NCBI GenBank assembly: GCA_947449255.1
Contig: CANFQX010000007.1
Location: 62,001-126,000, forward strand
Source: Pseudobdellovibrionaceae bacterium
GTDB taxonomy: Bacteria > Bdellovibrionota > Bdellovibrionia > Bdellovibrionales > Bdellovibrionaceae
DNA: 64,000 bases
Reading direction: 5' to 3'
Shown: piece by piece, positions 2,418-10,705 of the stretch
Layout of the letters: the number at the start of each line of letters is the position of its first letter
Position numbering within the stretch: position 1 is the first letter of the stretch
Position numbers and translations under genes: made by a program
Notes under the pieces: generated by a model
Told to the model about the DNA's origin: nothing
Seen by the model: the letters and a program-made list of their open reading frames with translations, nothing else
Databases searched by the model: none

Positions 2418-3239
2418 ATGAAAATGCGATTACCATTCAAGAATTCTTATAAGAGCTCAATCATAATCTCAACATGCGTGTTGGGATTAGTACTTTATTC
2501 GACGAAGGCAAAGGCAGCTCAAGCAGTCAAAAAAAATATCAATGGAAAAATAGTCGGCGGCCAAGAGGCTGCCGTTGGAGAGTTTCCATTCATCGTTTCA
2601 TTGCAATCCCGTGCCTATGGACATTTTTGTGGTGGATCTTTAATTAGAAAAAACTGGGTTTTAACAGCAGCGCATTGCACACGTGGCATACAAATCAATA
2701 AGGTATTTATTGGTCTTCATAATCTTTCCGAGGTCACAGAGGCTGAGGTGATCATTCCAAAACGGGTGGTTGTGCATCCCAAATACAATGCCAGTTTGAG
2801 CGATTATGACTTTGCTCTAGTCGAGCTTTCAAGTGACTCAAAGTATGAACCCATTTTATTGAATGAAACAGAAGTGAGCATTCCAGAAGGCGCCGATTTG
2901 ATATCAACAGTGGCGGGATGGGGAACGACCAAAGAAGGCTCAGCCCATCTTCCCGATCTTTTGCAAAAAGTGGATGTTCCCTTAGTGAATAAGGATGACT
3001 GCAATAAATCCTATCAAGGGCAAATAACCGATCGCATGATTTGCGCCGGCTATCCCGATGGTGGAAAAGATTCTTGTCAGGGCGATTCTGGCGGACCGCT
3101 GATGATGAATAGTGAGGATGGAAAGAGATATTTAATTGGTGTAGTCAGCTGGGGAGAAGGCTGTGCACGGGCAGGGTATCCGGGGATTTACAGCAAGGTG
3201 AATGCGGTGACTACTTGGATCAAGCAGGTTCTTCCTTAA
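2418..3239 (+). CDS. secreted trypsin-like serine protease (family S1A)
   Basis: 273 aa. A long signal region (about 1-33) is followed by a pro-piece ending in NGK and the mature start IVGG at residues 45-48, as in chymotrypsin-type zymogens. The triad is visible: His86 in TAAHC, Asp131 in DYDFALV, Ser224 in GDSGGP. Asp218, six residues before the catalytic Ser, corresponds to Asp189 of trypsin, so cleavage after Lys or Arg is predicted. Cys pairs around His86 and Ser224 suggest disulphides. The ATG has the purine-rich AAAGGGGG just upstream. Trypsin-like enzymes are expanded in predatory Bdellovibrio; digestion of prey protein is inference. Confidence 0.95.
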   Translation: MKMRLPFKNSYKSSIIISTCVLGLVLYSTKAKAAQAVKKNINGKIVGGQEAAVGEFPFIVSLQSRAYGHFCGGSLIRKNWVLTAAHCTRGIQINKVFIGLHNLSEVTEAEVIIPKRVVVHPKYNASLSDYDFALVELSSDSKYEPILLNETEVSIPEGADLISTVAGWGTTKEGSAHLPDLLQKVDVPLVNKDDCNKSYQGQITDRMICAGYPDGGKDSCQGDSGGPLMMNSEDGKRYLIGVVSWGEGCARAGYPGIYSKVNAVTTWIKQVLP

Positions 3240-5319: not shown

Positions 5320-5829
5320 TTACTTCGAACTCTCTTTAATAAACAACGTCAAGTAATGGCGAACCATGTATTCTAATTTAATGGGCTGATTTTGGTAGGT
5401 CCACACAAGTTCACTGAAGGCGCCCCATTGGGCTTCTATGATATGTTCATCCATGACATTGGTGGTGGCAGAAGCGCTCTCCAAGCCTGGGCTTGGAATG
5501 TAATTTGAACCGATAAAGTTAAAGCGAACACTGATATGCCCTGGCGACTTTAAGGAAAAAATCATCTTAAAACCATTTCGGAATAGCATAAAGTCAGCAT
5601 GGGTTTTTGCAATCCCATAGATTTTGATTCTGCCGATAGCTGAGGGTTTTAAATCATTAAACGCTGTTGAGGAATCTACAAAGTCATTTTTTAAACAAAG
5701 TAAATACTGAATCGTTTCGGTGACCAGAATTTTATCTGTGTCAAAACCGAAGCTCATATCCACGAGCCCTGATTCTTCCATTTGCTGTTCGGCTTTGACT
5801 AGATCTTTTATCCAGCTGATTTTTTCCAA
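5320..5829 (-). CDS. conserved hypothetical protein
   Basis: 169 aa, no signal peptide or membrane helix. The start is TTG at 5829, chosen because GGAGGAG stands five bases or so upstream on the minus strand; the next in-frame ATG is far inside. The fold looks alpha/beta, with several aromatic strands (HISVRFNFIGSNYIP). No family recognised. Upstream comes a 145-bp gap to the end of the large barrel protein. Confidence 0.65.
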   Translation of the reverse strand: MEKISWIKDLVKAEQQMEESGLVDMSFGFDTDKILVTETIQYLLCLKNDFVDSSTAFNDLKPSAIGRIKIYGIAKTHADFMLFRNGFKMIFSLKSPGHISVRFNFIGSNYIPSPGLESASATTNVMDEHIIEAQWGAFSELVWTYQNQPIKLEYMVRHYLTLFIKESSK

Positions 5830-5974: not shown

Positions 5975-8944
5975 TTAAAAACCAGAAATTTGAATGCTGG
6001 TTCCAAAGACGGACTCAGCTCCCTGTGGTGTGTTGAAGGCTTGATAAAATCCAAAAACTAAATTTATCGGAAACACATATCCGAGCGTGGTTTCAAGGCG
6101 AGCTTCAGCTCCAGCACTCCAGAAACTCTGCTTCATATTGATGGATTCAGCCGCGCCCGTTTGTATATTAAAAAACTTTCCATCAGCAGACACGCCATCT
6201 GCTAAGAAAGCTCCCGACAATCTTTTTATAAAGACGGGGTCCGTTCCTGAACCGCGATAAATATTTAAGATGGGGAAGCGGTATTCGAAGTTGAAGTTGA
6301 CGAGATTCTTTCCGTAAATTTGCCCCCTCTGATAGCCGCGAAGAATATATTCAGGCAAATAATTATCAGGAATGAATACAATCGATTCCGTAGATACACC
6401 ATAGGCTGAAGACACATTTTCGGGAATGTAGGCTCCCTTTGCACGCAACATGATTGCATGATGGAGGGGTAAAAAAGCATTAAAATACTTTTCTCCACCT
6501 AAGAGGAACTGCCAATGGTGTAGGAAATTATCTTGGGAGATATAATCAAAAACACCCAAATACCCACCCAGCCCAGACTCGGGGGACACTTGGGCGCCAC
6601 TTTGCTTGTAATTATGGTAATCCAAAATTGTGAAGGGACCGGTTCGCTTGGAGACATTGAGGCCAAAGGTTCGTTCAATGTATTGCCATCCGATTTGCAG
6701 GCTCGAATACCTAGACAACGCAAAAGTGTCTGGAATGACTGATGCCATCAGTGACACTTCAGAGTAGGGATTGTTGATGTCGCCCAAATATGAATTTCTA
6801 TTGTAGGCGGCAAGAGCAAAGGGCAAAGAGGTTGTTTGATTTAAATAGCTGCCCTCTATGCTGGCCTTATTAAGCTGTGTGTCCCAAGAGAGAGTAATGG
6901 CGTAAGAGTGCTTTTTTAAAGGATCAAACCCTGAAGTGGTGGCCTGAAAAACGAGACCTGATTGATTGGTGGATCCGGCAATGAAGGGAATCCAATAGTG
7001 GGGCCACAAATAATCTGTCGCTGAGTATTCAGACAAAGTGGGTGCTTCAAGGGTTTTCAAATCCTTCTCTTTGGAGACTTCTTTTTCAGGATAGCGATCC
7101 CCCATCAAAGAACTAATTTTTGGCAGGCTTGGAGGAGTTGCAGACCAATCTTTTTGAGCAATGGAAGCGATCTGAAACCCTTTAGAAGTCATCGTGGTTG
7201 TGATCAGCTCATTATTCTGAGGGTCTAAGTCGGACATAAAAAATCCGGTCAAAGTGTGCGTGATGGGACGAGGGTTATGTAAATTAAAGTCTGTCAGATA
7301 GACATTTTGGGCGCCATTTTTATTTGAGTTGAATAGCAATCCCGCTTTTGTCATGCGCGCAAAACGTGCATTAGGATAATCTTTGAAGAGACGTTCGGTC
7401 TTGTTGGTTGTTAAAGAATACTTATAGAGGTGTTCAAGTCCATCCCTATTGCGCCAAGAAAAAATAATTTCCTGAGAATTAATAAAACTAGGATAGGATA
7501 TGCGTTCTTCCAGCGGCGAAGAAAAAAGGACTTGAACTGGGAAAGCAGGATCCTTGTATTTCATCAGGGCCAATCCTGTTTGACCGGCTGAAAGTTTCAC
7601 AAAAACGATACTGTTGCCATCCGGAGAAACGGCAGGTTCTCGGGCGCGAAGTCCAAGTCCAAGTTGGGTGCTTTTTTTTGTGGCTAAATCATAAACATGC
7701 AAATCTGAAAAGCTTTCAACTTTATTGATGATGTCGACTTTATCAAAAACAAGACTTTTCGAGTCCGGGAACCAACTTATTCTCTGAATAGATCCTGAAA
7801 TCGCCTCTTCAGAATTGGGCGTTGGAGTGTTTGCAGGATTAAATTTTTCTATAAGATCAGTTGTGCCTTTTTCTCCGTACACATCAAGAAAGCTTTTCTG
7901 TAAATTTGGCGAATCTTTTTTTGTGAGAATTTTTACAGAACGCGATTTGCTGTCATCTTGAGTGATAAAAGCCAAGTGTTTGCCATCGGGTGAAATAGCT
8001 GGAGCGCTAAGGTTGTCGCTGTTTTTTTGGAATTGATGCAGGCTTGTGGGAGGAGTTTGCCTTAGTTTTGTTAATTGATTTTCCACCCGCTCTGAGGTCT
8101 CAGTAAGTGCTCTTGTATACATATTTTTATAGTCAGAATGCAGGAAGGTTATCGCGGGCTGCTCGATAAAGTAAGGTGCACGTCGACCATGGTGCTGATT
8201 GAGCTCGTTGATCACTTGATTGCCATGATCGGCAATCATTTGGCTCCACATGATGGACCCAAAAAGATAGGGACTCATTCCGCCGGGCCAAGTCGGCAGG
8301 ATTTCATTTGCATGAGAAATATCAAAAGTAAATAAAGTGTCGTCAATGACCATAGCCCTAATCACAGAATCTTGAAAGTTGGAGCGAAGGCGCCCATAAT
8401 GGCCCAGTTGTGTTTCCATTTGAACGGCAAGTCCTTCTTTCCACCAAGTTGGCAGCAGCATGTTGGGGGAAACGATGCTGCCAAAAAGAAATCGAAGGGG
8501 TTTCATTATTCCACCGGCGGGCTCCATGTTCAAAATGTGAGTGTACTCATGCGCTAACAGCTCGAAGGCCCAGTCGCCCGTGTCACCCAAACTGTCCTCT
8601 GGTCCAGGCATGACAGGGTAAGCGACGATATGAGGATAGGGGATTCGAGTGGCATAGCCATTCGTGATGTCGGTTTTATCATTAATGAGCACAGAAATCT
8701 TTGGAGGTCGTTCGCTGAAAAAAGGCAACAAGTCGTGATAAGCTTTTTCTAGTTTTTCAGAATAGAGCGCAGCAAGCTCGTGCTGCGGCGTACTGTGAAT
8801 AACGTCGAAATGGGCAGAATGCAGGACTTGCCACTGCAATTCAGGCTTAACTTCCCATTGAGCTTGAAGGGGAGGAGTCATGCAAATGAGAAACAAGGAT
8901 ATCAAAATTGAAGTGAAAATTTGAATTTTTAATAATTTATTCAT
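5975..8944 (-). CDS. large secreted protein: HExxH metalloprotease-like domain, TolB-like propeller, outer-membrane barrel
   Basis: 989 aa. Signal peptide 1-28. Residues about 35-300 resemble a peptidase MA-like gluzincin domain: HEYTH at 132-136 and WWKEGLAV with Glu170 as likely third zinc ligand. Residues about 305-620 contain repeated blade motifs such as SPDGKHLAF, SPDGNSIVF and WFPDSKSLVF, as in TolB/PD40 propellers. The last 300 residues are alternating aromatic strands ending in Phe, typical of a BamA/surface-antigen-like barrel. The protein would sit in the outer membrane with protease and propeller on one side. Similar architectures occur as uncharacterised proteins in Bdellovibrio; substrate unknown. 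Confidence 0.85.
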   Translation of the reverse strand: MNKLLKIQIFTSILISLFLICMTPPLQAQWEVKPELQWQVLHSAHFDVIHSTPQHELAALYSEKLEKAYHDLLPFFSERPPKISVLINDKTDITNGYATRIPYPHIVAYPVMPGPEDSLGDTGDWAFELLAHEYTHILNMEPAGGIMKPLRFLFGSIVSPNMLLPTWWKEGLAVQMETQLGHYGRLRSNFQDSVIRAMVIDDTLFTFDISHANEILPTWPGGMSPYLFGSIMWSQMIADHGNQVINELNQHHGRRAPYFIEQPAITFLHSDYKNMYTRALTETSERVENQLTKLRQTPPTSLHQFQKNSDNLSAPAISPDGKHLAFITQDDSKSRSVKILTKKDSPNLQKSFLDVYGEKGTTDLIEKFNPANTPTPNSEEAISGSIQRISWFPDSKSLVFDKVDIINKVESFSDLHVYDLATKKSTQLGLGLRAREPAVSPDGNSIVFVKLSAGQTGLALMKYKDPAFPVQVLFSSPLEERISYPSFINSQEIIFSWRNRDGLEHLYKYSLTTNKTERLFKDYPNARFARMTKAGLLFNSNKNGAQNVYLTDFNLHNPRPITHTLTGFFMSDLDPQNNELITTTMTSKGFQIASIAQKDWSATPPSLPKISSLMGDRYPEKEVSKEKDLKTLEAPTLSEYSATDYLWPHYWIPFIAGSTNQSGLVFQATTSGFDPLKKHSYAITLSWDTQLNKASIEGSYLNQTTSLPFALAAYNRNSYLGDINNPYSEVSLMASVIPDTFALSRYSSLQIGWQYIERTFGLNVSKRTGPFTILDYHNYKQSGAQVSPESGLGGYLGVFDYISQDNFLHHWQFLLGGEKYFNAFLPLHHAIMLRAKGAYIPENVSSAYGVSTESIVFIPDNYLPEYILRGYQRGQIYGKNLVNFNFEYRFPILNIYRGSGTDPVFIKRLSGAFLADGVSADGKFFNIQTGAAESINMKQSFWSAGAEARLETTLGYVFPINLVFGFYQAFNTPQGAESVFGTSIQISGF

Positions 8945-9138: not shown

Positions 9139-9645
9139 ATGATTCGTAAATTGGCATTTGGTCTGGTTGCTTGTACATTGGTTGTTGGTTGTAAGGGAAA
9201 ACAGTCAGTGTCTAATCAAAACCTTGAGTCGGCTTCAGCGGTTAGCCCTTCTGCGGCTATCGAGTCAACGCCCCTAAATTTTGATCCTACAGGTTCAGAC
9301 TCGGGCACTGTTACTGGTCTTAAGACGGTTCACTTTGGCTATGATAAGTCCACTTTGGATGAATCAGCAAAACGAGAAATTGCTGCGAACGCAGAATGGA
9401 TGAAAAAGAATCCAGACGCAAAAGTTCAAATTGAAGGACATTGTGATGCTCGTGGAACGATTGAGTACAATGTAGCTCTTGGAGAGCGTCGCGCAAATAC
9501 TGTTAAAGCCTATATGATCAGCTCGGGTGTTTCAGCGGAACGCTTAAGCACAATCAGCTATGGTAAAGAAAAGCCTCTAATGACTGGTGACTCTGAAGAA
9601 GCTTACAGCAAAAACCGTCGCGCTAACTTTGTACCAGCTCAGTAA
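9139..9645 (+). CDS. pal: peptidoglycan-associated lipoprotein Pal
   Basis: 168 aa. Lipobox LVVGC with Cys18, a Ser/Ala-rich linker, then an OmpA-like domain (about 64-165) with VHFGYDKSTLDESA, the peptidoglycan-binding IEGHCDARGTIEYN and GERRANTVKAY, close to the family consensus. Pal tethers the outer membrane to peptidoglycan and works with Tol proteins during constriction. GAGGAGG precedes the ATG. Two more lipoprotein genes follow, including the TPR protein CpoB, as in typical pal-cpoB clusters; tolQRAB are not in this window. Confidence 0.96.
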   Translation: MIRKLAFGLVACTLVVGCKGKQSVSNQNLESASAVSPSAAIESTPLNFDPTGSDSGTVTGLKTVHFGYDKSTLDESAKREIAANAEWMKKNPDAKVQIEGHCDARGTIEYNVALGERRANTVKAYMISSGVSAERLSTISYGKEKPLMTGDSEEAYSKNRRANFVPAQ

Positions 9646-9692
9646 TTTTAAAGTCTTAGCAATTGAGGTCAAACTTGTGTGAAGGACCTGGA

Positions 9693-10019
9693 ATGAGGAA
9701 GTTAAACATCTTATTCATCCGCAGTTTGTGTTTTTTGATGTTGATTCATTTTCAAACTGGTTGTCAGACAATGTCTCCACCTCTTGAGGATTATTCGCTT
9801 GCACGGGCAGCCATTGATGGCGCCCGCACAGTCCAGGCCGCCAGGCATTCACCAGGTTTTTGGCATCAAGCCGAAGAGGCTTATCGTAGAGGTCGAATCT
9901 ACTTTGATGATCGAGATTATTCAAAAGCAAAAGAGCAGTTTATTCGAGCTAGAATAGCAGCAGAAAAAGCTGAAAATTCGGCGCGAATGATTCGTCAAAA
10001 AACCGGAGACGTATTATGA
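9693..10019 (+). CDS. DUF4398-type lipoprotein
   Basis: 108 aa from ATG 9693, which has AAGGA seven bases upstream and starts directly with a lipoprotein signal (lipobox FQTGC, Cys24); a TTG at 9663 would add ten unlikely residues. Residues about 35-100 (ARAAIDGARTVQAA, then AEEAYRRGRIYFDDRDY, AKEQFIRARIAAEKAE) match DUF4398, a two-helix TPR-like unit found in envelope lipoproteins next to OmpA/Pal genes. Its stop overlaps the next start (ATGA), so translation is probably coupled to cpoB. Confidence 0.85.
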   Translation: MRKLNILFIRSLCFLMLIHFQTGCQTMSPPLEDYSLARAAIDGARTVQAARHSPGFWHQAEEAYRRGRIYFDDRDYSKAKEQFIRARIAAEKAENSARMIRQKTGDVL

Positions 10020-10705
10020 AATTCACAGGTGTATCCGCAGCATTAATTTCAATATCCTTAGTTTTTATTTCTGGATGCTTGCAGACACGAGGTGAAGTTA
10101 ACGAGAATCAACAGCGAAATGTCATACAACAACAAGTCAGCACCATGCAAAAGACCAATGCTGATGTTGGAAGTCGCTTTGCAGAAGTTGAAGAAGAGAT
10201 GCGGGCACTCAATGGTCGTGTGGAAGTCATCGAAAGCAAGTTAGATCAGAGCCACTCCATTCTTGAAGGCACGCTGAAATCGAACAAACAGCAAGGTCAA
10301 GACGTCAATGCAAAGCTTTCTCTAATCCAAGAAGCGCTAGTGAAAATGGAAAAAGAGATCAATTACTTAAATTCAGAACTTCAAAATTTTAAGGCCAGCG
10401 CGGCTGCGAATGCTTCGGCAATGGAAAGAAATAGCCGTCAGGTTCCAAAGGAAGCTTTCGAATTGGCCCAAGAGTACTTCACCAAAAAGGACTGGAAACA
10501 GGCCATTCTTCAATATCAAAAATATCGTGAAGAAAAGGTGAAAGGCCCTCATTTTGGAGAAGCCACCTATAAAATAGGCGTCGCGTTTCAAGAGTTGGGC
10601 ATGAATGACGAGTCCAAAACTTTTTATGATGAAGTTATCAGTAAATTCCCTAAGTCAGATGATGCACGTCGTGCTAAGATCCGCCTGAAGAGTCTTAAAA
10701 AATAG
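10016..10705 (+). CDS. cpoB: Tol-Pal system TPR lipoprotein CpoB/YbgF
   Basis: 229 aa. Lipoprotein signal with lipobox FISGC (Cys21); a trimer-forming coiled coil at about 45-125; TPR repeats from about 140 on (AFELAQEYFTKKDW, KGPHFGEATYKIGVAFQELG, ARRAKIRLKSL). The C-terminal pattern is that of YbgF/CpoB, which couples the Tol-Pal machine to peptidoglycan synthases during division. Most relatives have a plain signal peptide, so the lipid anchor is a variation shared with several deltaproteobacterial forms. Starts within the DUF4398 stop codon. Confidence 0.88.
   Translation: MKFTGVSAALISISLVFISGCLQTRGEVNENQQRNVIQQQVSTMQKTNADVGSRFAEVEEEMRALNGRVEVIESKLDQSHSILEGTLKSNKQQGQDVNAKLSLIQEALVKMEKEINYLNSELQNFKASAAANASAMERNSRQVPKEAFELAQEYFTKKDWKQAILQYQKYREEKVKGPHFGEATYKIGVAFQELGMNDESKTFYDEVISKFPKSDDARRAKIRLKSLKK

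Follow-up and report, generated by a model that had tools for sequence, protein, structure and literature searches.

What might a bacterial protein do that joins a zinc-peptidase pattern, a TolB-like propeller, and an outer-membrane barrel in a single chain? The question is raised by a gene in a stretch of 64,000 nucleotides from a Pseudobdellovibrionaceae bacterium (contig CANFQX010000007.1, positions 62,001 to 126,000), referred to here as the window. The gene is an open reading frame on the minus strand (5975-8944) that starts with ATG and encodes 989 amino acids; read on the plus strand, the same interval holds 36 stops. Our best explanation, to which we give a probability of about 0.55, is an outer-membrane-anchored, periplasm-facing predicted zinc metallopeptidase of the WD40-Omp85 / OMP-TolB-like family, encoded near Pal and CpoB. 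Computation supplies its foundations: the three-part order of the chain, an invariant zinc pattern, fold resemblances, and a neighbourhood of pal, DUF4398, and CpoB genes. The original prediction had placed HEYTH, WWKEG, PD40/TolB-like blades, and a barrel ending in Phe in one 989-residue chain, and all of them lie there, as follows.

5975 to 8944, minus strand: whole gene, 989 amino acids, with signal peptide, HExxH peptidase-like domain, TolB-like propeller, and Omp85-type barrel
8858 to 8944, minus strand: putative Sec signal peptide, residues 1-29, recognised by eye in the translation
8045 to 8857, minus strand: N-terminal domain, residues 30-300, with a predicted gluzincin-like fold (M30 lugdulysin comes closest at Z 13.2, followed by M1 and M9)
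8537 to 8551, minus strand: HEYTH, residues 132-136, predicted zinc site with catalytic Glu133, from invariance in the alignment
8432 to 8446, minus strand: WWKEG, residues 167-171, with the predicted third zinc ligand Glu170, from invariance in the alignment
8267 to 8269, minus strand: Tyr226, present in 39/39 aligned sequences and 20/20 more distant relatives
7139 to 8044, minus strand: beta-propeller, residues 301-602 (PD40 match; TolB by profile and fold)
5978 to 7003, minus strand: C-terminal barrel, residues 648-989, of Omp85 type in the model, last residue Phe (TamA Z 24.2, BamA Z 24.1)
6332 to 6340, minus strand: RGY, residues 869-871, conserved in the alignment

We take the RGY to resemble the loop-6 RG[FY] motif of Omp85 proteins. 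Searched with the protein, the organism's own genome yields one copy; the family profile gives 3 matches there, and the 989-residue gene is the single one among the matches listed.

The N-terminal domain and its zinc-site pattern

When the protein was shuffled 20,000 times, HExxH by itself turned up in 3.4% of the shuffled chains; with W..EG 25-45 residues after it, it turned up in none. We regard the pattern as real chiefly because it is invariant in relatives, a stronger argument than the shuffles. Our alignment holds 39 sequences, the query and 38 others; among them L058 is a second, more distant copy in the genome that also carries L039. A second set adds 20 more distant relatives, of which 18 lie outside the class. 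D92, N95, H132, E133, H136, E170, G171, E177, Y226, and R433 are invariant in 39/39, and all 20 of the more distant set retain HExxH, the EG after it, Y226, and RG[FY]. At the RGY site, the 39 sequences have R in 38, G in 37, and Y or F in 38. The three-part order itself recurs in relatives, so the search for it suggested with the original prediction came out positive. Conservation along the chain is highest in the peptidase domain: the mean share of the commonest residue in the 39-sequence alignment is 0.55 there, 0.43 in the propeller, and 0.44 in the barrel, and median identity to the query is 40%, 32%, and 29%, respectively. Tyr226 is, by analogy, a candidate transition-state tyrosine.

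The N-terminal domain (residues 30-302) was folded separately, since the fold lists for the whole chain were filled by the propeller and barrel; the model, built from 16 sequences, has a mean predicted local distance difference test score (pLDDT) of 58.9. In each of two fold searches, the best 50 chains listed were all M1, M9, or M30 zinc peptidases, by family labels that we in part assume. The best Foldseek match was a Colwellia aminopeptidase, at an expectation value (E) of 1.4e-3. VIA-align found M30 lugdulysin at Z 13.2 (229 residues, root-mean-square deviation (rmsd) 7.8) and 13.0 (216 residues, rmsd 3.9), and M1 chains at up to 11.6, with the caveat that in helical folds a Z value below about 13 may reflect a common arrangement.

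That caveat weighs against a peptidase, as do several other results: the low confidence of the domain model; the lack of any Foldseek match under E 1e-3; a Pfam scan of the 39 members that gave no catalytic peptidase model save a weak Peptidase_M9 (E 0.055) in 1/39; and S9-type NCBIfam names below cut-off, Dpp5 in 27/39 and a lasso isopeptidase in 7/39, which in the query fall on the propeller part. We accept a gluzincin assignment because the invariant HExxH...E motif and zinc-peptidase fold neighbours occur together, and consider it likely but not firm. The gluzincin fold that the original prediction had proposed for the HEYTH region agrees with the nearest folds, and the contrary outcome did not appear; so weak a model falls short of firmly excluding another fold. 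The gluzincins, M30 lugdulysin, M1 aminopeptidases, and M9 collagenases, share the HExxH...E pattern with this domain and supply the nearest folds to its model; the 989-residue protein differs from them in its fusion to a propeller and barrel and, save for the one weak M9 match, is unmatched by their curated models. We infer that the domain would bind zinc and be proteolytic.

Membership of Peptidase_MA_2 (PF13485) was considered and rejected: the model is absent from the Pfam hits of the query and the 39 members, no curated profile match was obtained, and the genome-wide matches lie elsewhere, none over the cut-off.

The propeller, the barrel, and families already described

The whole-chain model (14 sequences) has a mean pLDDT of 76.2 and a predicted template modelling score of 0.64. 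Its propeller, at about residues 299-602, is nearest in fold to TolB (Z 25.0, 241 residues, rmsd 2.5), which is also the best profile match against solved structures (E 9.2e-11); Pfam matches PD40 (E 7.1e-9). The propeller is common to both proteins, whereas TolB has neither barrel nor peptidase. The TolB model TIGR02800 gives the 989-residue protein 42.1 bits against a cut-off of 343.15, and TolB_N has no hit in the 39 members. A stand-in for a missing tolB was rejected: the genome has its own TolB (G000:C2), with TolB_N over the cut-off and 323.4 bits for TIGR02800, just below that model's cut-off. This TolB belongs to a tolQ-tolR-tolA-tolB run, with gene identities read from translations, that lies elsewhere in this genome, without pal. 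Besides the TolB on C2, the genome holds a second TolB-like gene of 435 amino acids (L061:3120-4427, on G000:C10).

For the barrel, at about residues 648-988 in the model, the closest solved folds are those of TamA (Z 24.2, 284 residues, rmsd 3.2) and of BamA (Z 24.1), and the original prediction of a C-terminal barrel, with Phe as its last residue, is borne out by model and folds alike. By model it is of Omp85 type; its strands are consistent with 16 by a manual count that is not decisive. Among the Pfam hits of the 39 members at E 0.1 no POTRA family appears, and no Omp85 Pfam model was matched. PF00149, which we take to be the metallophosphoesterase family, is likewise not among the Pfam hits of these members. 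It defines a separate Omp85 subfamily, "Metallo", called Omp85 metalloprotease (PMC4104836), which differs in this from the family considered here.

Is the combination new? Its architecture had been described. The WD40-Omp85 subfamily, named in 2014 by Heinz and Lithgow and likened to a BamA-BamB fusion acting as a platform, has a WD40/TolB-like propeller followed by an Omp85 barrel, with no POTRA (PMC4104836). The OMP-TolB-like proteins, reported in 2025 with a Bdellovibrionales example (A0A1F3SUA3) and proposed to resemble the ancestor of TolB, share with our protein an outer-membrane barrel, a TolB-like periplasmic propeller, a further domain, and their occurrence in Bdellovibrionales (PMC12204202). 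The barrel, the TolB-like propeller before it, and the lack of POTRA are all found here, and we place the protein in this family. The original prediction could name no function for the combination; the architecture proves to be a known one, and the text of PMC4104836 and PMC12204202 gives no demonstrated function for it.

What sets the protein apart is its N-terminal domain. The WD40-Omp85 text mentions no peptidase domain with the propeller (PMC4104836), and the adjacent domain of the OMP-TolB-like proteins is called Rossmann-fold (PMC12204202), whereas here an invariant HExxH...E stands with gluzincin-like nearest folds of a low-confidence model. As a check on the Rossmann description, the chains listed for the domain are gluzincins; coming from such a model, absence from those chains excludes nothing. 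Supplements aside, neither text names a peptidase domain in the family (PMC4104836; PMC12204202), and our literature search brought up no paper that, judged by its title, joins an Omp85 or outer-membrane propeller with a gluzincin/HExxH peptidase. PlpD, like the 989-residue protein, carries an enzyme domain on an Omp85 barrel, and unlike it has a patatin-like lipase and a POTRA domain, without a propeller (PMC11116518). The family itself is known; what seems to be new is its assignment to the peptidases and the pal/CpoB neighbourhood.

Linkage to pal and possible roles

Divergently from the family gene, the window holds the following run.

9139 to 9645, plus strand: pal, the divergent neighbour (TIGR02802, 138.8 bits, over the cut-off of 125.35)
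9663 to 10019, plus strand: small lipoprotein-like gene with DUF4398 and a TTG start (PF14346, 31 bits, over the cut-off of 27.9; scanned from 9690 only)
10016 to 10705, plus strand: CpoB-like lipoprotein of the Bd0635 predatory-vesicle family (NF053852, 312.9 bits, over the cut-off of 250)

NF053852 is named "CpoB-like predatory vesicle lipoprotein". Bd0635 marks the vesicle left in prey by B. bacteriovorus, and attempts to delete it gave revertants only (PMC10769870). The pal of the window is the best Pal match in its genome; split tolQRAB and pal-cpoB loci are known from other bacteria (PMC12204202). A promoter scan between the family gene and pal gave 3 promoter-like sites, all on the plus strand, versus 0.9 expected, and nothing firm.

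In the order, pal is divergently adjacent to the family gene in 50 of 53 genomes with a usable locus, a sample of relatives that favours the genus and family; the pal-lipoprotein-CpoB run usually follows. The 53 are 59 relatives minus G010, G026, and G045 (weak paralogue-level matches only), G031 (72% complete; no match), and G049 and G057 (gene broken up over two contigs). One locus, L053, was scored as linked from a pal that is truncated where the contig ends (52 bits). The misses are G006, G050, and G054. In G006 (L159 and L160) the gene is split on a single contig: an N-terminal piece lies beside pal and the rest about 0.6 Mb away beside g5320, from either rearrangement or misassembly. Outside the order, among loci fetched from the family side, 5/20 lie beside pal (L129, L134, L137, L138, and L139), both same-class loci included. 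Weaker relatives, at 26-32% local identity to the query, are beside pal in 5/11 loci (L165, L166, L167, L172, and L175) and not in L163, L164, L168, and L171, which have HE[YF]RH, nor in L169 and L170, which have HETAH.

How much should this adjacency count? Several results tell against a functional link. Approached from pal, in 40 loci hand-picked among the matches listed, the family gene is adjacent in only 1/13 loci of family f4; outside the class, with one locus per genus, it is adjacent in 5/27 and lies 1.2 kb away in one more. This sample left out genera with short contigs, as well as L129 and L137, and L205, L209, and L216 offer only about 2 kb on the upstream side of pal. In G010, G026, and G045, pal is present without a family member next to it. 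The family gene and pal are divergent, not one operon. The surrounding block of g5320, TsaD, RsmA, and SmpB is itself conserved, so pal adjacency could be plain synteny, and simple block synteny may be its source. Universal pal linkage is rejected by the pal-anchored check; the pattern across loci can be read as an old linkage lost many times.

g5320 (5320-5829 of the window, minus strand, 169 amino acids) lies beside the family gene or pal in most loci of the order and has no Pfam or NCBIfam match. A trypsin-like serine protease gene, with TAAHC and GDSGGPL in its translation, occupies 2418-3239 on the plus strand of the window. Directly upstream of pal, on the same strand, two other loci encode stand-alone proteins of 375 and 378 amino acids with HExxH and a later EG (L190:3298-4425, plus strand; L204:2197-3333, minus strand); neither has a Pfam match.

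How could the parts of the chain work together? The Omp85-type barrel (648-989) would anchor it in the outer membrane, and the TolB-like propeller (301-602), just inside that membrane, would be a docking platform that chooses the partner or substrate. The gluzincin-type domain (30-300; HEYTH, Glu170, and probably Tyr226), positioned on the inner side of the outer membrane, would as an endopeptidase cleave an envelope protein where Pal and CpoB work. Its role may be in Pal/CpoB-dependent remodelling between outer membrane and peptidoglycan, or in outer-membrane protein turnover.

A TolB-like adaptor, its peptidase fold only a binding module that docks Pal or TolA without proteolysis, would account for a propeller closest to TolB by profile and fold, for the pal neighbourhood, and for a family proposed as an ancestor-like state of TolB (PMC12204202). 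We think it unlikely: a dead enzyme would not be expected to retain Glu133, the predicted ligands, and Tyr226 in 39/39 and 20/20 sequences, and a separate TolB with TolB_N over the cut-off is present in the same genome.

Less likely still is outer-membrane assembly or quality control, with the barrel aiding insertion as BamA or TamA does, the peptidase removing failed substrates, and the nearness of pal incidental. The barrel is indeed TamA/BamA-like, pal is linked in some loci only, both beyond the order and within f4, and protein assembly is the conservative hypothesis for unknown Omp85 subfamilies according to Heinz and Lithgow (PMC4104836). Yet no POTRA model was found in the 39 members, PlpD suggests that Omp85 scaffolds have been turned to other uses (PMC11116518), and pal adjacency recurs in scattered families.

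On topology, the peptidase and propeller would both face the periplasm, inside the outer membrane. The N-terminal domain is placed there because the N-terminal domains of Omp85 proteins face the periplasm, their POTRA domains having been observed there only, and because the enzyme domain of PlpD, once thought exported, was placed in the periplasm by experiment (PMC11116518). Of the self-anchored surface protease first proposed, the anchored protease is still suggested by the zinc pattern, the gluzincin-like folds, and the modelled Omp85-type barrel, while the surface location is at odds with periplasmic Omp85 N-terminal domains. A barrel that exports peptidase and propeller in autotransporter fashion, to attack prey or surroundings, would suit the signal-peptide-like start, the C-terminal barrel, and the export left open for another Omp85 subfamily by Heinz and Lithgow (PMC4104836), but is very improbable and was rejected as the most likely reading on the Omp85-like fold of the barrel, a type with periplasm-facing N-terminal domains, and the precedent of the periplasmic PlpD enzyme domain (PMC11116518); some 570 residues in two folded domains would also need passage through the barrel.

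A bolder form of the periplasmic metallopeptidase reading is tentative, and we hold it doubtful: the proposed outer-membrane ancestor-like form of TolB would be a working metallopeptidase, in this phylum an Omp85-anchored gluzincin that docks by its TolB-like propeller at Pal/CpoB sites and cuts envelope tethers at points of outer-membrane remodelling, of which the CpoB(Bd0635) invasion vesicle may be one in Bdellovibrio. If true, TolB descends from, or has its propeller in common with, a protease-bearing outer-membrane protein. In a family recently likened to TolB's source, the zinc peptidase site appears to be intact, and the N-terminal domain deserves a second look in the published scenario of TolB origin. 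Together with adjacency to pal and cpoB in most of the family's own order, this site makes the protein a candidate for proteolysis at the Tol-Pal machinery, and a candidate protease encoded where the marker of the Bdellovibrio invasion vesicle has its locus.

Range of the family and related proteins

All but one (G031) of the 59 relative genomes, the organism's own included, match the 989-residue protein, some by weak paralogues only. The family profile matches 287 of 290 genomes of the phylum at E 1e-3; many of these matches are weak and in part other paralogues or TolB, and family f18 has none better than 1.5e-55. The OMP-TolB-like family has been reported more widely, beyond the phylum (PMC12204202). 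Among named genomes, an alignment-based scan gave 15 loci, the named relatives being Bdellovibrio, Pseudobdellovibrio, and Bdellovibrionaceae records, where a single-protein query gave no match. Phages and plasmids gave no match to the family, and there was no PHROG match.

Two further groups of proteins came to light. In the first, of 941-958 amino acids where complete (L063:2049-4889, L064:2711-5587, L163, L164, L168, and L171, the last cut by the locus end), HE[YF]RH occurs with W..EG. No pal was found at these six loci, and the two proteins scanned, L064 and L163, have no Pfam match; L063, L064, L164, and L168 have RG[YF] near the C-terminus. The second consists of proteins of 991 and 977 amino acids with propeller-like repeats (L059:3215-6190, on G000:C17, and L062:3004-5937). 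L059, the one scanned, is another fusion of propeller and peptidase, with PD40, M28 peptidase, and PDZ domains.

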